Shown in pieces: positions 2,892-51,559 of a DNA stretch of 64,000 nt (positions are counted from its first letter, which is position 1; each line of letters opens with the position of its first letter). The stretch comes from Sphaerochaeta halotolerans (GTDB lineage Bacteria; Spirochaetota; Spirochaetia; Sphaerochaetales; Sphaerochaetaceae): positions 1 through 64,000 of the forward strand of contig NZ_QUWK01000001.1 in assembly GCF_003429665.1 (NCBI RefSeq). Reading direction: 5' to 3'. Below the pieces are notes generated by a model. The model did no database searches, was not told the origin of the DNA, and saw nothing but the letters and a program-made list of their open reading frames with translations. The translations under genes were made by a program, and so were the position numbers.

Positions 2892-5036
2892 ATGTATATA
2901 GCATTAATTAACGTACATGGACTTGTTCGCAGCAACAATATTGAAATGGGAAGAGATGCCGACACGGGTGGACAGACCCGGTATGTTGTAGACCTCGTTA
3001 AAGAGCTCTCATCAAGAGAGGATGTAGAGGTGGACCTGTTCACCCGTCTGATCAAGGACTCTCGAGTCAGCGAGGATTACCGAAAGAGCATTGAGCAGAT
3101 AGGCGAACATGCACGTATCGTCCGATTGACATGTGGAGGAACAAAATACCTCCGGAAAGAACTTTTATGGCCATACCTGGACGAGTATGTGGACAACCTG
3201 ATTTCGTTTTTCCGCACACAGAAAAGAACACCAGACATCATTCATGCCCACTATGCAGATGCGGGCTATGTAGCCACAGAGTTGGCAGCTTACTTCCAGA
3301 TTCCCTTGGTCTTTACCGGGCACTCCATGGGACGCAACAAACTTGAGTATCTCCAAAGCCAAGGAGTAAGTGAAGACAAGCTCAACCAGTATTATCATAT
3401 CTACACCCGCATCGAGCAGGAAGAGCGTACGATACGCCATGCCTCCTTGGTGATCACGAGCACCAATTATGAGAAAAATGTGCTCTATAAGCCATATGAG
3501 TCGCAAGACCTTTCCAAGATGAAGGTCATCCCTCCAGGTCTGGATTTGGATACATTCTTCCCATATTACCATTATGAAATCCAGGACCCATCCATCACTG
3601 AAGAGATGAAGCTTGCCCAATATTCCATGGTAAAGGAACTCCAACGCTTCCTTACCAATGTGGATAAGCCATTCATTCTTGCCCTCTGCAGACCGGAAGC
3701 ACGAAAGAACATCGATCTGCTCATCGATGTCTACGGCAAGAGCAAGGAGCTGCAGGCAATTGCAAACCTGGTCATCGTTGCTGGCATTAGGGATGACATC
3801 ACCAAGATGGAGGAAGGAGAGAAGCAAGTCCTCACCGACATGCTTCTACTCATGGACCGCTATGACCTCTATGGAAAGATGGCTATTCCCAAGCATCATA
3901 ATCCACAGCGGGATGTACCGGAGATTTATAGGCTGGCTGCCATGAAGCGTGGTATCTTTGTAAGCACCGCCGCCCTTGAAAATTTTGGACTTACCTTTAT
4001 AGAAGCCTCAGCAGTAGGGCTTCCCTTTGTTGGGACAGACAAGGGAGGTGTGCGGGATATTTATGAAAATTGCGAAAGTGGGATCTTGGTGGACATCTCC
4101 AACAGGAAAGCAATCGAGGAAATCCTATACACTTTGCTCACGGATACAGAACAATGGCAGAAGCTTTCCGAGAACGGAGTACAACACATCCGGCAGGTAT
4201 ACAACTGGAAAGCACATGTAGACACCTACCTCAGCCATCTCAAGACAGTTCTGAACAACAAGAAGAAGCAACCTGCCCTTGCCACCAGGATGGGATCGAT
4301 TGAACATCTTTTGGTCTGCGATATAGACAACACGCTTACAGGGGACAGAGCTGCCGCTGATGAACTAGCGAAAGTCCTGGAGGCTCATCATGACCGCGTC
4401 GGCTTTGCAATTGCAACCGGCAGGAGTTTTGAATCTGCACAGGAAGTGCTCAAGCACTACTCATTCCCGACACCGGACATCCTGATCACAGCAGTAGGGA
4501 GTGAGATCCACTACGGTTCGAAGGATGTTCCTGACAAGGGATGGACACACTATATCAGGAGACGATGGAAACCGGATGTAATCAGGGAAGTCCTCTCTGC
4601 ATTCCCTGAACTGGAAATGCAGAATGAGGAGGGAACCCAACGTAGATACAAGATCAGCTACACTATCAAGGAAGGAAGTGAAATCCCAAGCTTGATGGAA
4701 CGAATCCGAACAGCCTTATCTGAAGCAAGGAGCATGCAGCACTTGGTACTCAGTCATGACACCTACCTTGATATCCTTCCCTACCGTGCAAGCAAGGGAG
4801 ATGCCATCCACTACATTGCTTGGAAATGGGGAATTGAAGCCAGTCGAGTACTTACAGCTGGGGACTCAGGTAACGATCGTGACATGTTCTCCAATCCGCT
4901 CAGATCTATCATTGTTGCAAACCACGAGGAATCACTGAACACCATCAGGAAATCGAAACGGGTGTTCTTTGCCACCAAGGATTCGGCTGCCGGAGTACTG
5001 GAAGGATTGCGGCATTTCAAGGTGATTGAAACGTAA
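2892..5036 (+). CDS. Sucrose-phosphate synthase fused to sucrose-phosphate phosphatase
   Basis: Predicted to make sucrose from UDP-glucose and fructose 6-phosphate and then dephosphorylate it. The 714-residue protein starts with a GT4 glycosyltransferase (about 1-465): the donor-site loop DADTGGQTRYVVDL, GHSMGRNKLEYL, the R/K region CRPEARKNI and the E-x7-E region ENFGLTFIEA. A HAD phosphatase domain follows (about 470-714) with the intact nucleophile motif CDIDNTLTGD near 476 and GDSGND near 656. Some cyanobacterial homologues carry a catalytically dead phosphatase domain; this one keeps the acidic residues. AGAGG five bases before the ATG at 2892 favours that start over the GTG at 2886. Terminators lie on both sides, so it is probably monocistronic. 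Sucrose may serve as an osmolyte here (inference). Confidence 0.9.
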   Translation: MYIALINVHGLVRSNNIEMGRDADTGGQTRYVVDLVKELSSREDVEVDLFTRLIKDSRVSEDYRKSIEQIGEHARIVRLTCGGTKYLRKELLWPYLDEYVDNLISFFRTQKRTPDIIHAHYADAGYVATELAAYFQIPLVFTGHSMGRNKLEYLQSQGVSEDKLNQYYHIYTRIEQEERTIRHASLVITSTNYEKNVLYKPYESQDLSKMKVIPPGLDLDTFFPYYHYEIQDPSITEEMKLAQYSMVKELQRFLTNVDKPFILALCRPEARKNIDLLIDVYGKSKELQAIANLVIVAGIRDDITKMEEGEKQVLTDMLLLMDRYDLYGKMAIPKHHNPQRDVPEIYRLAAMKRGIFVSTAALENFGLTFIEASAVGLPFVGTDKGGVRDIYENCESGILVDISNRKAIEEILYTLLTDTEQWQKLSENGVQHIRQVYNWKAHVDTYLSHLKTVLNNKKKQPALATRMGSIEHLLVCDIDNTLTGDRAAADELAKVLEAHHDRVGFAIATGRSFESAQEVLKHYSFPTPDILITAVGSEIHYGSKDVPDKGWTHYIRRRWKPDVIREVLSAFPELEMQNEEGTQRRYKISYTIKEGSEIPSLMERIRTALSEARSMQHLVLSHDTYLDILPYRASKGDAIHYIAWKWGIEASRVLTAGDSGNDRDMFSNPLRSIIVANHEESLNTIRKSKRVFFATKDSAAGVLEGLRHFKVIET

Positions 5037-6966: not shown

Positions 6967-7557
6967 ATGAAGCGTTGTTCCATCATTATTCATAGCGTAA
7001 GCGGTAATTGCTATATCATCGGTTCCTATCTGAGGGAACTCTTGGCTGTACGAAACGTCGATGCACGCCTCTACCGAGTTGACGACCCTGATCTCCATAT
7101 CTGGGCGAACACACAAGAGACAACAAACGACTACTACGAAGACATTCTTGCTCTTCCTATTGTCAGTACGTCGACCCTGCTCAAGAGCGACATGATTATT
7201 CTAGGAAGCCCAACAAGATTTGGAAATATTTCAGCCGAGATGAAGACATTCCTCGATACTACGCTCCCCCTAAGCAAGGACAAGGGCTTGGAAACAAAGT
7301 TCTTCGCTTGCTTCACCAGCTGCTCAAACTCAACCTGTGAAGGTGCACACACCCTTACATCTATGATTTACTGGGCACAGTCTATGGGGATGCTCCATAT
7401 CCCATTTGGGGTGCATGATGAACTGGATTTCTGTGATCAACCGGTATCAGGTATCGTCCATCTTGCAGGAAAGGAGGGGGCCATCCGCCCCAGCGACCGT
7501 CTTGGCAAGGAGATGGAAGTATACGCTGACACTCTCAGCGCTTACATCCAAGAGTAA
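6967..7557 (+). CDS. Flavodoxin-fold protein (WrbA / NAD(P)H:quinone oxidoreductase-like)
   Basis: Predicted cytoplasmic FMN-binding reductase of 196 residues. The N-terminal HSVSGNCYIIGSYL loop corresponds to the FMN phosphate-binding loop. LGSPTRFGNISAEMKTFLD, at about 78-96, is the typical WrbA/flavodoxin second segment. The stretch ACFTSCSNSTCEGAHT is richer in Cys than in classic WrbA. A GTGAGG ribosome site precedes the ATG. The exact electron acceptor cannot be told from sequence. Repeat copy 1 lies shortly after its stop codon. Confidence 0.8.
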   Translation: MKRCSIIIHSVSGNCYIIGSYLRELLAVRNVDARLYRVDDPDLHIWANTQETTNDYYEDILALPIVSTSTLLKSDMIILGSPTRFGNISAEMKTFLDTTLPLSKDKGLETKFFACFTSCSNSTCEGAHTLTSMIYWAQSMGMLHIPFGVHDELDFCDQPVSGIVHLAGKEGAIRPSDRLGKEMEVYADTLSAYIQE

Positions 7558-7597
7558 GAACGGTGGAAAGAGGGAAGCAGAAACGCTTCCCTCTTGT

Positions 7598-7755
7598 ATG
7601 AAAGGTATCAATACCCCAGGGCAAGCCCTGGACTCAGGAGGTGTTGCCTCCTTTTCCGCCCCAAGGGAAGGGGTATCTCACCTTGCTTTCCCGGCACTCG
7701 CTCCAGAGAGGAACCATCATGCTGATTCCTTTCCTCTCGCTTCGTTGGGGAATCA
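7598..7755 (+). repeat. Dispersed structured repeat, copy 1 (full length)
   Basis: 158-base element starting ATGAAAGGTATCAATACC and ending GTTGGGGAATCA, nearly identical to the segments at 42288 and 43916. It contains successive hairpins: CCAGGG-CAAG-CCCTGG, AGGAGG-TGTTG-CCTCCT, CCCC/GGGG, GAGAGGAA/TTTCCTCTC, and TGATTCC paired with GGAATCA near the 3' end. One frame is open throughout (MKGINTPGQALDSGGVAS...). It fills the gap between two convergent genes and its last bases overlap the stop codon of the minus-strand gene. It could act as a bidirectional terminator or be a non-autonomous mobile element. Confidence 0.9.
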
Positions 7756-8670
7756 ATTCTTGGAAAAAAGGTATCGAATCCGATTGGCCCAACGCCCTAA
7801 CCAGCCCCTTCCATAGCGGGTCTTATAGTCGTGGGTTGCACTCTCGATGCTTACCTCCTGGCTACCGCTCATATGCTTGAGATTGTCCCAGTGACGCACA
7901 ATCCACATATAGAGGTCTGCCTCGGTATTCCCTGGGAATGATGCAAGCAATTTTGCCCGTCGCACTTCCTCAACGATTGGGCGATAGACATTCTGGTACC
8001 AAGATTTTGCTCCATCCTCAAAGCTGATTTCCTCTTCCTTTCCCTCGTTGAGATAGTATTTATGTACCAAGATATGATTAACCATCTCCGGATAGGATCC
8101 AGGGGCGGTAAAAAGGATTTCCTCCATCGGGAGATAGGTAGGGTTGTACTGGGTGATGAACCGCTCTCGCTCGTAGTCAACCACACGCTTACGCAAACTT
8201 TTCATCGTCAACCCAGCTTCCAAGGGAATCTGGCTGTCCAGTTCAACAACTTCGGCATCGATGAATTCAACACCCTGGGTTTTGGCGACAGAGACACGAT
8301 GGTTCCCATCCCTTACAAAATACCACTGTCCAAGCTTATACACAGAGATGGGGGGAAGGATGACATATTCCTTCGTCGCGCGGTCAATACTCCGCCAGCG
8401 GGTTCTAAGCAATTCCTTCTTTGGGTAGAAAGCCATGGAAAAATCCTGGTATCTCCCTTCGCTGCCGATAATCTGGTTCACTGGAATGACCCTCATCCCC
8501 AGATATGTCTCATTCTTGGGTTTCAACAACTCGGTTACCGCATAGAAACTCAAAAGATCTGAATTCTTCCATGCCAGACTACTGAGCAAAGACTGGATTC
8601 TCCCTCTGGAACGAGCTTTTTCAAAGTCCTCGTTCGTTTGGGAAACCAGATCAGCGCCTATTTTTACCAT
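7753..8670 (-). CDS. ParB/sulfiredoxin-like domain protein of unknown function
   Basis: Soluble protein of 305 residues. The recognisable part is about residues 85-135, where VILPPISVYKLGQWYFVRDGNHRVSVA matches the ParB/sulfiredoxin-like fold (DGNHR motif) found in several regulators and nucleases. The rest is helical and charged with no signal peptide. It is the last gene of a long minus-strand run and overlaps the upstream phosphoesterase gene by 20 bases, so it is translationally coupled to it. The stop codon is formed by the edge of repeat copy 1. I cannot assign a function. Confidence 0.7.
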   Translation of the reverse strand: MVKIGADLVSQTNEDFEKARSRGRIQSLLSSLAWKNSDLLSFYAVTELLKPKNETYLGMRVIPVNQIIGSEGRYQDFSMAFYPKKELLRTRWRSIDRATKEYVILPPISVYKLGQWYFVRDGNHRVSVAKTQGVEFIDAEVVELDSQIPLEAGLTMKSLRKRVVDYERERFITQYNPTYLPMEEILFTAPGSYPEMVNHILVHKYYLNEGKEEEISFEDGAKSWYQNVYRPIVEEVRRAKLLASFPGNTEADLYMWIVRHWDNLKHMSGSQEVSIESATHDYKTRYGRGWLGRWANRIRYLFSKN

Positions 8671-41187: not shown

Positions 41188-42288
41188 ATGGAAAAGAAAA
41201 GCGTATCGGTAACCCTTGAGCATGTAACCAAGAGATTCAAGGATGTAAAAGGAAAGTCTGATGTCATTGCTGTCAATGATTCTCACTTCGTCATCGAGCC
41301 TGGTGAGTTGGTAACCCTGCTCGGTCCTTCCGGTTGTGGAAAAACTACCACGCTTAGAATGATTGCAGGGTTCGAGCTTCCCACTGAGGGTAAGATCTAT
41401 ATTGGAAACGAGGAAGTAACCATGCTCCCCCCGAACAAACGTGACACTGCCACAATGTTCCAGAGCTATGGCCTCTTCCCTCATATGACGGTCTTCGACA
41501 ACGTTGCCTATGGATTGAAACTCCGCAAGATTCCCCATGAGGACATCGTGAAACGGGTAAATGAAACCTTGGCTTTGGTTGGGCTTTCAGACTATGGGGA
41601 TCGTGCACCATCCAAGCTCTCTGGAGGGCAACAACAGCGAGTTGCTCTTGCACGAAGCCTCATTGTCACCCCATCAGTGTTGTTGCTTGATGAACCACTG
41701 TCCAACCTTGATGCACTGCTTCGCGAGCAAATGCGTGTGGAAATACGCAAGATCCAGAAGGAATTGGGCATCACTGCTGTCTATGTTACCCACGACCGGG
41801 TGGAGGCCATGAGTCTCTCTGACCGAGTGGTTGTCATGAAAGATGGTTTCATCCGCCAGATTGGTTCCCCGATTGACATCTATGAGAACCCTAACTCCCG
41901 CTTTGTTGCTGGGTTTGTCGGTAAGGCAGCCTTCTTCCCTGTTAGGGTAAAGAAACAAGAAGCAAACCTTTGGACTTGCCAGCTTGGGGAGAAGGAGGTT
42001 GTGGTAGAACGTGCTACCACTGATGTAGAGGTTGGTACTGAGGCAGTTCTGATGGCACGCCCTGAATCACTTCGAGTTACTGAAAAAGGTAAAGGTAAAA
42101 TTGAAGGCAAGGTCAGAATGAATGTCTATCTTGGAAACAGTATGGAAGCATTCATCAATACCTCCTTCGGAGAAGTGCTGGTCCAGATTGACGACCCCCA
42201 TGCAAAAAAGGTATTTGAGGAAGGAGAAGAGGTCTCTATCGACTTCACTCCTGATCGGGTCAGATTGCTCAATGAAAATGAAGCGTAA
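41188..42288 (+). CDS. ABC transporter ATPase (FbpC/PotA type)
   Basis: 366-residue ATPase: Walker A LGPSGCGKTT (about 44-53), Q-loop in MFQSYGLFPHMTVFDN, signature LSGGQQQRVALARSL, Walker B VLLLDEPLSNLD and H-loop THDRVEAMSLSDR. Arg follows HD where Gln is usual. A C-terminal TOBE-type regulatory domain (about 240-366) is present. It completes the three-gene ferric/polyamine-type importer whose substrate cannot be fixed by sequence. Its TAA overlaps the first base of repeat copy 2. Confidence 0.9.
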   Translation: MEKKSVSVTLEHVTKRFKDVKGKSDVIAVNDSHFVIEPGELVTLLGPSGCGKTTTLRMIAGFELPTEGKIYIGNEEVTMLPPNKRDTATMFQSYGLFPHMTVFDNVAYGLKLRKIPHEDIVKRVNETLALVGLSDYGDRAPSKLSGGQQQRVALARSLIVTPSVLLLDEPLSNLDALLREQMRVEIRKIQKELGITAVYVTHDRVEAMSLSDRVVVMKDGFIRQIGSPIDIYENPNSRFVAGFVGKAAFFPVRVKKQEANLWTCQLGEKEVVVERATTDVEVGTEAVLMARPESLRVTEKGKGKIEGKVRMNVYLGNSMEAFINTSFGEVLVQIDDPHAKKVFEEGEEVSIDFTPDRVRLLNENEA

Positions 42289-42406
42289 TGAAAGGTATCA
42301 ATACCCCAGGGCAAGCCCTGGACTTAGGAGGCGTTGCCTCCTTTTCCGCCCCAAGGGACGGGGTATCTCACCTTGCTTTCCCTGCACTCGCTCCGTTGGG
42401 GAATCA
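42288..42406 (+). repeat. Dispersed structured repeat, copy 2 (internal 39-base deletion)
   Basis: 119-base copy that begins on the last base of the ATPase stop codon and ends GTTGGGGAATCA. Compared with copy 1 it lacks 39 bases between two CTCGCT direct repeats, a likely slippage deletion that keeps the reading frame (13 codons). The CCAGGG/CCCTGG and AGGAGG/CCTCCT hairpins are intact. It lies between two convergent genes, as copy 1 does. Confidence 0.9.
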
Positions 42407-42481: not shown

Positions 42482-43852
42482 CTATCCACGCGTGAGAAAA
42501 ACGCCTTCTTCAATGACATACGGAGCTGAAACCCCCTGAACACGTACATCTTGGGCTGTTAATGATACATTACGTAGCCTGATACCACGTCCCTCCTGAT
42601 CCGGGAGCCCTTCATACATCTCACTTTCATGTACCGGTACCAGGTTCTCTGGCGCAACAGTAAATACACAGTTTGAGACGACCAAATCACGGATAGGGGA
42701 TTCCGGGAGTCCCACAATGAATGCAGCACTGGATCTACTATTGGTACTTGTGCAACCTTCAATAGTGACATGCTCAATATGGGGAGTGGTGGGGAGCACT
42801 GGTTTCTTCTCCAAGGAAAAATCTTCAGCATCCAGGCTGCCACAGCGATAGTACATGCTAACGGTAAGAGGACAGAGGTTGTTCTCCATCCTGATATCTT
42901 GGAAATGCAGGTCAGAAATAACCCCTCCCCGACCTCGTCTGGTCTTGATCCTGATGCCTCTATCTGTACCATCAAAGAGACATGAACGCACCACCACAGC
43001 ATGGATGCCTGCAGCGGTTTCGCTACCGATGACAGCACCTCCATGAGCATGTCTTACAGTACATCCCTCGATAAGGATATCACTGGTACTACGATTCACC
43101 GCAACCCCATCCTTTCCGCTTCCGCTCTTGAGGGCAATGCCATCATCCCCAACATCGATTACACAATTCTTGATAGTCACAAAGCGACAAGAATCCACAT
43201 CGATACCATCGGTGTTGGGTGCATCCTGAGGGTTAATCACAGAAAGATCCCTGAGAATGATATTGGTGCTGTACAGGGGATGAACCGTCCAGAAGGGGCT
43301 GTTCTGTATGGTCAATCCTTCAATCTCAACATTGTTGCTCTCCTTGATCTGCAACAAGGGAGGACGAAGGAATTGACTCTCACGTCCTCCTCCCCCTCCA
43401 CTCTGTCTCTCATACCCAGGATTCAGCTTGGCCAATTTCGTCTCGATTGTGGAAACAGGTCCCACTTGTGTATTCCGCTTCTGTTGAGCGGCGAGCCACC
43501 ACCAGGAACCATTGCCATCTATGACGCCTTCCCCATGGAGGATGAGACCATCAGATTCATTGATTAGCAAACAAGGATGCATGCAATAACAGTTCACCCC
43601 TTCCCAACGTGAATAGAAAGGTTTGTAGAGGTTCTCATCAGCAATGAAGGTTATGGTTGCACCCTTTTCAAATTCCACCACAAGATTCGTTGCAGTAATC
43701 TGGATTGGACCACTCAGGTAGTTCCCTTTTTCGATACACAAGTGCCCGCCGTTATGCAAGGCTTCAAACGCTCGTTTGAAAACCTCACTATTGTCAAACG
43801 TTCCATCACCTTTTCCCCCGAAATCTGCAAGTGTATATTCCTTGTTCATCAT
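42482..43852 (-). CDS. GH28 polygalacturonase/galacturonidase, cytoplasmic
   Basis: Hydrolyses alpha-1,4-galacturonan, releasing galacturonate. The 456-residue protein is a right-handed parallel beta-helix of family GH28. Catalytic motifs in order: NTDGID (about 215), VGDDGIALKSG (about 237), AHGGAVIGSE (about 272) and RIKTRRGRGG (about 302). There is no signal peptide, so it probably acts as an exo-enzyme on imported oligogalacturonides. It is divergent from the epimerase gene with 48 bases between the start codons. AAGAGGTG precedes its ATG. Confidence 0.93.
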   Translation of the reverse strand: MMNKEYTLADFGGKGDGTFDNSEVFKRAFEALHNGGHLCIEKGNYLSGPIQITATNLVVEFEKGATITFIADENLYKPFYSRWEGVNCYCMHPCLLINESDGLILHGEGVIDGNGSWWWLAAQQKRNTQVGPVSTIETKLAKLNPGYERQSGGGGGRESQFLRPPLLQIKESNNVEIEGLTIQNSPFWTVHPLYSTNIILRDLSVINPQDAPNTDGIDVDSCRFVTIKNCVIDVGDDGIALKSGSGKDGVAVNRSTSDILIEGCTVRHAHGGAVIGSETAAGIHAVVVRSCLFDGTDRGIRIKTRRGRGGVISDLHFQDIRMENNLCPLTVSMYYRCGSLDAEDFSLEKKPVLPTTPHIEHVTIEGCTSTNSRSSAAFIVGLPESPIRDLVVSNCVFTVAPENLVPVHESEMYEGLPDQEGRGIRLRNVSLTAQDVRVQGVSAPYVIEEGVFLTRG

Positions 43853-43900: not shown

Positions 43901-44932
43901 ATGAAACAGTTAGGAATGAAAGGTATCAATACCTTAGGGCAAGCTCTGGACTCAGGAGGCGTTGCCTCCTTTCCCGCCCCAAGGGACGGGGTATCTCACC
44001 TTGCTTTCCCGGCACTCGCTCGGGAGAGAAACCATCATGCTGATTCCTTTCCTCTCGCTCCGTTGGGAATCAGAGCTCATGATCTTGGTACGTTCGATAC
44101 CATCAAAGACCTTGCCAGCGAGATTTCCCGCTATGGGGACGCCATCCCTATTCAACTCGCTCTTGGGAAAGTTCTCAAGAATGCTCCGGATGCAGAAAAC
44201 TACACTGAGCAGTTCATCATTTCCGTTCGCGATGCACTCAAGGAAAAAGGTGCATATGTAGGTGTTTTTGGAAGCTACATCAACCCAGTACATCCTGATG
44301 AGACAGCGAGAGATGCAGAGTTGCGTACATTTGAAAACCACCTCAAATATGCCAACCTCCTTGGATGCCCTTTGGTGGGAACCGAAACCGGCTCCTTCCA
44401 CAGCGATAATGCCTACCACCGTGACACAGCAAGTGCCAAGGTGCTCGATATCTTCTACCGAAGCGTAGAGCGGCTTCTAGAAGCTGCCGTAACATATGAT
44501 GCAATCGTCGGTATCGAAGCGGTAAGCAAACAACATACCATCAGCACCATCTCACGAATGGCAACCTTGTTGGAGAAGTTTGACAGCCCTCACCTCAGGG
44601 TCATATATGACCCAGTGAACCTTGTCCCGTGGACCGGTATAAGCGAGGCAGATGGAAGCGTTATGGGAATACCCTCATCTGCCGCCCAGAAGGACTTCTT
44701 CTGCTCAGCCCTCGATGCTTTTGGAGATAAGATTGCAGCAATCCACGTCAAGGACTACAAACTCAACGAACAAGGGTTCAAGGTCGGGGATCTGACAGTA
44801 GGAGAAGGAGTTCTTGACTGGAAATTCCTGTTTGGGGAATTGCGAAGACGGAATATTGAAGTCCCTACCCTGCTTGAAGATCTTACGGTCTCTACCTTGA
44901 AGGAGACACTCGCGTTACTTTCTACATACTGA
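43901..44932 (+). CDS. Sugar phosphate isomerase/epimerase with repeat-encoded insertion
   Basis: TIM-barrel protein of the xylose isomerase-like/AP endonuclease 2 family, 343 residues as read. The normal part resumes at IRAHDLGTFDTIKDLASEI and carries GVFGSYINP, GTETGSFHS, VGIEAVSKQ, VIYDPVNLV and AAIHVKDYKL, the metal-binding strands of the barrel. Codons 1-5 (MKQLG) are separated from IRAHDLG by 51 codons of repeat copy 3. Removing the repeat gives the expected MKQLGIRAHDLG start. The insertion falls in the first beta-strand, so activity is uncertain. It is likely involved in pectin-sugar metabolism next to GH28. Confidence 0.85.
   Translation: MKQLGMKGINTLGQALDSGGVASFPAPRDGVSHLAFPALARERNHHADSFPLAPLGIRAHDLGTFDTIKDLASEISRYGDAIPIQLALGKVLKNAPDAENYTEQFIISVRDALKEKGAYVGVFGSYINPVHPDETARDAELRTFENHLKYANLLGCPLVGTETGSFHSDNAYHRDTASAKVLDIFYRSVERLLEAAVTYDAIVGIEAVSKQHTISTISRMATLLEKFDSPHLRVIYDPVNLVPWTGISEADGSVMGIPSSAAQKDFFCSALDAFGDKIAAIHVKDYKLNEQGFKVGDLTVGEGVLDWKFLFGELRRRNIEVPTLLEDLTVSTLKETLALLSTY
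43916..44068 (+). repeat. Dispersed structured repeat, copy 3, inserted in frame
   Basis: 153 inserted bases (51 codons) nearly identical to copy 1, entered in the same reading frame (MKGINTLGQALDSGGVAS...). GGAAT occurs at both junctions (43913-43917 and 44066-44070) and may be a target duplication, or the shared edge of the element and target. Copy 3 has one G fewer at its right end than copies 1 and 2, which restores the downstream frame. No stop codon interrupts the fusion. Confidence 0.9.
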
Positions 44933-50885: not shown

Positions 50886-50970
50886 GGAGAGATGTCCGAG
50901 CGGTCGAAGGAGGCGGTCTTGAAAACCGTTGAGGCGAGAGTCTCCGAGGGTTCGAATCCCCCTCTCTCCG
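50886..50970 (+). tRNA. tRNA-Ser (UGA)
   Basis: Class II tRNA with a long variable arm. Acceptor GGAGAGA pairs with TCTCTCC, the anticodon loop CTTGAAA carries TGA, and the T arm GGTTCGAATCC is intact with discriminator G. First gene of a five-tRNA cluster. Confidence 0.96.
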
Positions 50971-51007
50971 TTCATTCATCTATCTGGATGAATTTGTTTT
51001 TCCCTAT

Positions 51008-51094
51008 GGAGAGGTGCGAGAGCGGCCGAATCGGGCTCCCTGCTAAGGAGTTGACCTGGTAACGGGTCCGGGGGTTCGAATCCCCCCCTCTCCG
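51008..51094 (+). tRNA. tRNA-Ser (GCU)
   Basis: Class II tRNA with acceptor GGAGAGG/CCTCTCC, anticodon stem CTCCC...GGAG enclosing TGCTAA with anticodon GCT, a long variable arm and a T arm with GGTTCGAATCC. It reads AGC/AGU. Confidence 0.95.
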
Positions 51095-51115
51095 TTTTTG
51101 ATTTTTTTTAGTATT

Positions 51116-51189
51116 GAGATCATAGCTCAGCTGGATAGAGCATCAGTTTGCGGAACTGAGGGTCGGAGGTTCGAATCCTCTTGGTCTCA
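51116..51189 (+). tRNA. tRNA-Arg (GCG)
   Basis: Class I tRNA. Acceptor GAGATCA pairs with TGGTCTC, with one U-G pair. Anticodon stem TCAGT/ACTGA encloses loop TTGCGGA, so the anticodon is GCG. A20 and C35, both arginine identity bases, are present, with discriminator A. Bacteria usually carry ACG (inosine-modified) here. Confidence 0.9.
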
Positions 51190-51222
51190 TAATTCGTTTT
51201 GTATGAAACGGTCATAACACTG

Positions 51223-51310
51223 GGAGAGATGTCCGAGTGGTCGAAGGAGACGGACTCGAAATCCGTTGTACCGTCTGACGGTACCGAGGGTTCGAATCCC
51301 TCTCTCTCCG
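51223..51310 (+). tRNA. tRNA-Ser (CGA)
   Basis: Class II tRNA with acceptor GGAGAGA/TCTCTCC, anticodon loop CTCGAAA (CGA), a long variable arm with GTACCGTC...GACGGTAC pairing, and a standard T arm. It reads UCG. Confidence 0.96.
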
Positions 51311-51353
51311 ATAGCTTGGATATTTTTTAGGGTTACCGTTTATTTCGTTCCTT

Positions 51354-51438
51354 GGAGAGGTGTCCGAGTGGTCGAAGGTGCACGCTTGGAAGGCGTGTGT
51401 GCTGAAAGGCACCGGGGGTTCGAATCCCCCCCTCTCCG
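51354..51438 (+). tRNA. tRNA-Ser (GGA)
   Basis: Class II tRNA with acceptor GGAGAGG/CCTCTCC, anticodon stem CACGC/GCGTG enclosing TTGGAAG (GGA), a long variable arm and a T arm with GGTTCGAATCC. It reads UCC/UCU. Confidence 0.96.
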
Positions 51439-51445
51439 TTTAGTT

Positions 51446-51559
51446 CCCAGTCAACAGATTCTGTGCTATGTGCATTCGCCCAACCCCGTCAGGACCGGAA
51501 GGTAGCAGCGGTAAGTGAATAGCCCATGAGACACAGGCGATTTGTTGGCTGGGTTTTTT
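51446..51559 (+). ncRNA. ffs: SRP RNA (4.5S, small bacterial type)
   Basis: Contains the conserved SRP RNA apical core: GTCAGGACCGGAAGGTAGCAG includes the GGAA tetraloop and the Ffh-binding symmetric and asymmetric loops. The closing stem is formed by CCCAGTCAACA at the 5' end and TGTTGGCTGGG at the 3' end, followed by TTTTTT as terminator. About 110 bases, between the serine tRNAs and dnaX. This order is common near dnaX in bacteria. Confidence 0.93.

Follow-up and report, generated by a model that had tools for sequence, protein, structure and literature searches.

The window, the whole 64,000-nt stretch of Sphaerochaeta halotolerans DNA analysed here, contains a hairpin-rich sequence three times, which raises the question of what kind of element this is, how it reached its positions and whether it serves the genes that it touches. 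The preliminary description had placed copies at 7598, 42288 and 43916, with several hairpins and one frame open from ATG in common, and copies with these properties are present at all three positions. The features are as follows.

7570..7595, plus strand: older hairpin terminator of the upstream FMN-reductase-like gene, adjoining the insertion point of copy 1; relatives have this terminator but not the element
7598..7753, plus strand: copy 1, full-length element of 156 bp (net insertion 154 bp), with 94-98% identity to 40 further scored copies
7602..7684, plus strand: 5' domain of copy 1, AAGGT/ACCTT and ATACC/GGTAT closing stems around three hairpins (cloverleaf), from fold and covariation
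7688..7752, plus strand: 3' domain of copy 1, TTCCC/GGGAA closure and inner hairpin, from fold and covariation
7754..7758, plus strand: right flank of copy 1, CAATT; the element's last AAT and the flank give AATCA, the target motif
42288..42404, plus strand: copy 2, 117 nt, with an internal deletion of 39 nt (3' hairpin gone)
43916..44070, plus strand: copy 3, 155 nt, one G missing, near the 5' end of a xylose-isomerase-like (AP_endonuc_2) ORF

Copies 1 and 2 had been described as lying between convergent genes and touching stop codons, and the ORF coordinates agree. Copy 1 is located between ORFs 6967-7557 (plus strand) and 7753-8670 (minus strand), its right end overlapping a TGA stop (TCA on the plus strand) at 7753-7755, i.e. 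the AATCA at this end contains the stop of the minus-strand gene. Copy 2 is located between ORFs 41188-42288 (plus strand) and 42482-43852 (minus strand), base 42288 being common to its start and to the TAA stop of the former. The hairpin arms, reported as kept in both copies, are kept in the 5' domain only, as copy 2 lacks the 3' hairpin. Copy 3 is hosted by ORF 43901-44932, which matches PF01261, with surroundings that read ATGAAACAGTTAGGA^ATCAGAGCT (M K Q L G I R A). Owing to the loss of one base, its net insert is 153 nt, so that the predicted xylose-isomerase-like ORF keeps its frame with 51 extra codons.

Copy number, host range and fold

A 24-nt core pattern matches 76 sites in the 2.93-Mb genome, compared to none for the reversed control pattern, and BLAST detected at least 41 copies, all with at least 94% identity (40 candidates scored). 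The repeat is thus real and dispersed, and local duplication is excluded by this genome-wide count together with copies in congeners, other genera and other families. Named records of this sequence belong to Sphaerochaeta species and other Sphaerochaetaceae, and the element is found in 10 of 26 Sphaerochaeta genomes, with congeners that hold many copies, as well as in two other genera of the family. Using a covariance model (R2) whose structure was checked by hand, homologues with the same fold were identified in 19 of the 297 Spirochaetia genomes searched; these belong to seven families (f1, f8, f9, f14, f18, f20 and f60) and often have 10 copies or more. A patchy distribution together with high copy numbers is characteristic of mobile elements. 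The proposal of a REP/MITE-type element able to invade genes is therefore supported in the sense of a dispersed, mobile repeat that occasionally enters genes. A literature search of limited scope returned no earlier description of what is an abundant mobile family in spirochaetes.

Weak covariance-model matches in G059 (L284) and G015 (L285) resembled ordinary sequence and were dropped. Matches in five Treponema-like genomes (L375-L379; G415, G450, G435, G414 and G463) have only CCGCCCCAAGGGGCGGGGTAT in common with the element and were judged to be a different palindrome; they represent a separate repeated palindrome, CCGCCCCAAGGGGCGGGGTATT, common to one hairpin of the element. One element copy (L370, positions 3016-3164 of IMGVR_UViG_2820424542_000002) resides on a contig classed as viral in IMG/VR.

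The element, ATGAAAGG...GTTGGGGAAT, comprises 156 nt in two folded domains. In the 5' domain, the hairpins CCAGGGC-AA-GCCCTGG, AGGAGGC-GTT-GCCTCCT and CCGCCCC-AA-GGGGCGG form a cloverleaf, and in the 3' domain a TTCCC/GGGAA closing stem surrounds a single variable hairpin. The folding z-score of a single copy is -2.1, which is weak if taken alone. Among 37 sequences, 92.8% of cells pair, falling to about 56% when partners are slid by one base, and 14 pairs have changed on both sides, a pattern matched by 0 of 500 shuffles. Larger replacements follow the same rule: the 3' closing stem changes jointly to GTTGCC/GGCAAT in some relatives, entire stems are swapped for other complementary sequences in distant ones, and two otherwise near-identical copies of G551 (L479 and L483) differ in their whole closing stem, ATACC/GGTAT versus GTAGAAC/GTTCTAC, with pairing retained. 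Rfam gave no gathering match at the element within the window, the only hit being a chance one (E=0.75), and a known Rfam structured RNA was consequently rejected. Elsewhere in the window, positions 50886-51550 hold a tRNA gene cluster, several members having long variable arms (serine-like), followed by a bacterial small SRP RNA.

Two further structural observations were made. The direct repeats ACTCGCTC (window 7696-7703) and TCTCGCTT (7735-7742) flank the inner 3' hairpin and co-vary in relatives (both are CTCATT in G513, G525 and G551), as if one partner might bind both. In G404 and G532, a short form of about 95 nt (L392 and L393), with the outer stem and the 3' domain and without cloverleaf arms, occupies the same place in two species, just before a ribosomal-protein-like start (MAKKKI...).

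Target site, strand and proposed mode of transposition

The insertion sites were mapped to a short AATGA-like motif, AAT[G/C/A]A. The left end, ATGA, is the same in all 63 unique copies, with A before it in 59, and the right end reads AAT, then G (38), C (16) or A (9), then A. On the minus strand, the copies are positioned 3' of TT[C/G/T]AT|T in the left flank and have TTTCAT at the right end, the second T of the target being found in 61/63 and the +1 T in 59/63. Empty sites in relatives, CTCTCCA^ATGAGAGCC and GCA^ATGAAGAACC, compared to the filled arrangement A|ATGAAAGG...GGGGA|ATGA, demonstrate mobility and show that insertion adds a net 154 bp at A^AT[G/C/A]A. In other species, the unoccupied sequences are CTCTCCAATGAGAGCCC and GGCAATGAAGAACC, and two more such loci agree save single substitutions. 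The AATGA present at both ends is not a true 5-bp target duplication, because the left end is invariant and the right copy alone varies with the site. A classical MITE was likewise rejected, as the ends ATGAAAGG and GGGGAAT are not inverted repeats and there is no true duplication.

At one locus (L015), a single insertion joined two target-like sites that are about 530 bp apart in G018 and G024, with deletion of the intervening DNA. At L192 (G000:C43:147599-154599), the element (3430-3585) replaced about 530 bp seen in relatives and ends at two different AATNA-like sites; here, a Fic-like ORF is fused in frame to an ADP-ribosylglycohydrolase-like ORF via the element.

The orientation of the copies is linked to GC skew, used here as a proxy for replication direction. 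Of 75 copies in the own genome, 61 have the plus strand of the element on the strand with negative skew (p=4e-8), and copies on the same contig agree in orientation in 66 of 76 cases (permutation p<=5e-5). The repeats of G016 display the same bias (38 of 46 copies, p=9e-6; 18 of 21 loci), and in G067 and G056, where numbers are small, it stays below significance. In a logistic model with both predictors, skew is informative (LRT p=1e-9) and the direction of the neighbouring gene is not (p=0.8). If, as presumed, the leading strand is the G-rich one, the minus strand of the element would be the one on the lagging-strand template, in the own genome as well as in G016. Two independent lines, the skew-linked orientation and the IS200/IS605-like reading of the minus strand, hence point to the same strand, and the lagging-strand template is also the known target of IS608 and ISDra2 (PMC6006769). 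Counts of G-T versus A-C mismatches as a test of the folded strand (30 vs 43) lean slightly towards the minus strand and are not decisive.

Based on this anatomy, we consider it likely that the repeat is a non-autonomous, gene-free element of 154-156 bp whose movement follows the single-strand 'peel and paste' route of IS200/IS605 transposons. The minus strand would become exposed as single-stranded DNA on the lagging-strand template and fold into the two hairpin domains, which an HUH tyrosine (Y1) transposase may then recognise in trans. Cleavage would take place at TTCAT, the right end of the element, followed by insertion of the element 3' of TT[C/G/T]AT|T, and the resulting copies would be tolerated mainly between genes. 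No autonomous copy with a transposase between the element ends was found near the Y1 genes of the genus, and inspection of the minus strand by eye yielded no clearly assigned guide tetranucleotide pairing with the cleavage site. Taken together, the fold, the exact target and the skew-linked orientation make single-strand transposition a testable proposition on sequence evidence alone.

Alternatively, the element could be a circular cassette inserted through site-specific recombination (integron attC-like, or by a tyrosine or serine recombinase) at an AATGA core. The presence of this short core at both ends and in the target, the structured site and head-to-tail tandem copies in G056 are compatible with such a cassette. 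However, the copies are scattered singly rather than arrayed at one locus, and single-strand transposition better explains the skew-linked orientation, making recombination improbable. The tandem locus of G056 (L256, G056:C92:16505-16965) comprises three head-to-tail copies with a period of 153, and its junctions resemble a right-end/left-end circle junction.

Gene context and the open frame

Gene contexts were assigned to genome stretches with a home-made, approximate gene caller. Of 75 copies, 32 are located between co-directional genes, 18 between divergent and 14 between convergent ones, 9 overlap a gene and 2 are at a contig edge. Convergent gene ends, suggested initially from copies 1 and 2, are accordingly not the rule. 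In total, 64 of the 75 copies are intergenic, compared to 10% of the target-like sites in the window, an excess that indicates selection against gene disruption. In eight copies, a predicted stop codon is only a few bases away. Such contact can largely be traced to the target motif, as AAT[G/C/A]A contains TGA on one strand or the other.

It has also been suggested that the element ends transcription from both sides, and more generally it may be kept for a host function at gene ends, as a terminator, an mRNA stabiliser or another structured RNA. The strong structural covariation and the intergenic excess are what such a role would predict. The excess is nevertheless accounted for by selection against gene disruption, and the contexts are mixed, with only 14 of the 64 intergenic copies in convergent settings. 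Around copy 1 (7400-7900), no terminator-like site was predicted, and the hairpin terminator of the neighbouring gene predates the insertion, leaving the bidirectional terminator unsupported. Copies are found beside or inside older terminators, one of them (L009) having split the loop of an existing one. Moreover, positions are empty in sister species, and orientation tracks skew rather than transcription. We therefore regard a host function as quite unlikely, in favor of a transposing element tolerated between genes.

The conserved open frame raises a different possibility, namely a coding cassette like the Rickettsia palindromic elements, inserting 52 codons in frame. The element is 156 nt long, one frame is open in 56 of 58 own-genome copies, and in copy 3 and L192 this frame is continuous with that of a gene. 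Yet the frame is closed in all 17 copies of the close relative G016 and in both copies of G007, and it is open in about half of those in G056 and G067. Changes are spread evenly over the codon positions (74/88/70), synonymous and nonsynonymous counts are as expected, and 1 stop was observed against 3.0 +/- 1.7 expected. In addition, the net insertion of 154 nt is not a multiple of 3. The frame is thus not under coding selection, and the coding cassette, contradicted by the codon-position data and by the frames of relatives, was rejected as extremely improbable. Stop-codon contact and an open frame in repeats of this type can arise from the target motif and chance.

Related elements and candidate transposases

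A hairpin-folded element at 76 places or more permits the question of which enzyme moves it. Among known systems, IS608 inserts 3' of a TTAC that stays in the left flank, and the corresponding site of ISDra2 is TTGAT|G (PMC5934647). As in these IS200/IS605 members, the spirochaete element has a short left-flank motif, a matching right-end motif and hairpin ends, no target duplication and a preference for the lagging template, but it differs in having neither tnpA nor tnpB and in its far larger hairpin domains. With non-autonomous (PATE/MITE) derivatives of the group it shares the one-strand left-flank motif, the hairpin ends and the lack of duplication, and, in two species (61/75 and 38/46), the lagging-template bias; what sets it apart is that near the Y1 genes of the genus it has no ends in common with a tnpA-bearing element.

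The element also resembles the REP/REPIN repeats served by RAYT proteins (PMC6006769, PMC8266576, PMC3733652), being a non-autonomous, folded extragenic repeat with an intergenic bias and rare in-frame gene insertions, and co-occurring in the family with a single-copy RAYT. In contrast, its fold has two domains and 156 bp rather than a 20-40-bp hairpin, neither end has a GTAG or CGTC foot, and the RAYT is devoid of flanking copies except in G067. TIRYT/TIR systems (PMC3733652, PMC6006769) are similar in their subclass-2.1-like tyrosine transposase and in the repeats of some such genomes, and dissimilar in that the element has no terminal inverted repeats and no transposase bracketed by such repeats. 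By analogy, the element would work in the manner of REPs and of the IS200/IS605 elements that are not autonomous.

Its nearest counterpart by size, copy number and target is bcr1 of the Bacillus cereus group (PMC6542083, PMC2267715), a folded, MITE-like element of 147-167 bp that is present in tens to more than 100 scattered copies, most of them chromosomal, is mobile although no enzyme is known for it, and has a TTTAT site motif (PMC6542083) comparable to TT[C/G/T]AT. It belongs to another phylum and was compared by description only; of the two, the spirochaete element alone has been shown to fold its 5' domain into a cloverleaf, to be oriented according to skew and to occur in at least seven spirochaete families.

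The own genome encodes two IS200-type TnpA proteins (C4:75463 and C48:179915) and a single-copy RAYT-like protein of 270 aa (G000:C16:10001-10810). The latter matches Pfam Y1_Tnp (E=1e-9) and NCBIfam REP_Tyr_transpos (E=6e-17, below that model's cut-off) as well as, by profile, E. coli TnpA-REP 4er8, and its HUH (NHYH) and Y (YIVQNP) motifs are intact. Judged from its NHYH and Y--NP motifs, length of about 270 aa and long C-terminal tail, it seems to resemble subclass 2.1 of Quentin et al., who found no REP for this subclass (PMC6006769).

The distribution of RAYT follows that of the element within the family, where it is present in 12 of 14 carriers and 5 of 105 element-free genomes (Fisher p=5e-11, not corrected for phylogeny), and within the genus (9 of 10 carriers, 4 of 16 non-carriers, p=0.004). 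At the class level, any RAYT is present in 10 of 19 carriers and 43 of 278 others (p=4e-4), and in G023 and G025, assembled in 1-2 contigs, RAYT is the sole Y1 protein found. In the RAYT-bearing relatives G001 and G003, element-detecting searches recovered no element. The search for a matching transposase therefore yielded an associated protein, not a proven partner: the single-copy RAYT is the most likely one, but it is to be taken as a lead, since outside the family only 4 of 12 carriers have any RAYT and no Y1 protein was detected in six carriers outside Sphaerochaetaceae (G513, G515, G525, G404, G532 and G551), some of these Y1-less genomes being fragmented and perhaps holding only relics of the element.

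Mobilisation by an ordinary IS200-type TnpA of about 150 aa would make the element a classical, PATE-like IS200/IS605 derivative rather than a RAYT client. The anatomy fits this equally well, and besides the two genes of the own genome, others exist in the carriers G016, G018, G020, G367 and G406. On the other hand, no match was obtained in carriers G023, G025, G017 and G019 despite their element copies, and the 1.5-kb TnpA flanks contain no IS with the ends of the element, only short-word matches besides ordinary nearby copies (L127, L147 and L149). We consider this option rather unlikely. With RAYT as the candidate enzyme, we tentatively propose, as a possibility, that cloverleaf single-strand elements form a class-wide spirochaete family and are the substrate so far lacking for subclass-2.1-like RAYT proteins, a group to which surveys assign no repeat. 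Were RAYT the partner, the largest RAYT subclass would gain a candidate substrate and a candidate role.

Copies of the element flank RAYT neither in the own genome nor in most relatives; in G067, the sole exception, the RAYT stop codon overlaps one partial copy. As seen on sequence inspection, the RAYT gene (L221/L144) immediately follows a DprA-like gene, a position that it also has in several Sphaerochaeta species and in G067, an arrangement suggestive of a domesticated transposase adjoining a DNA-uptake gene.
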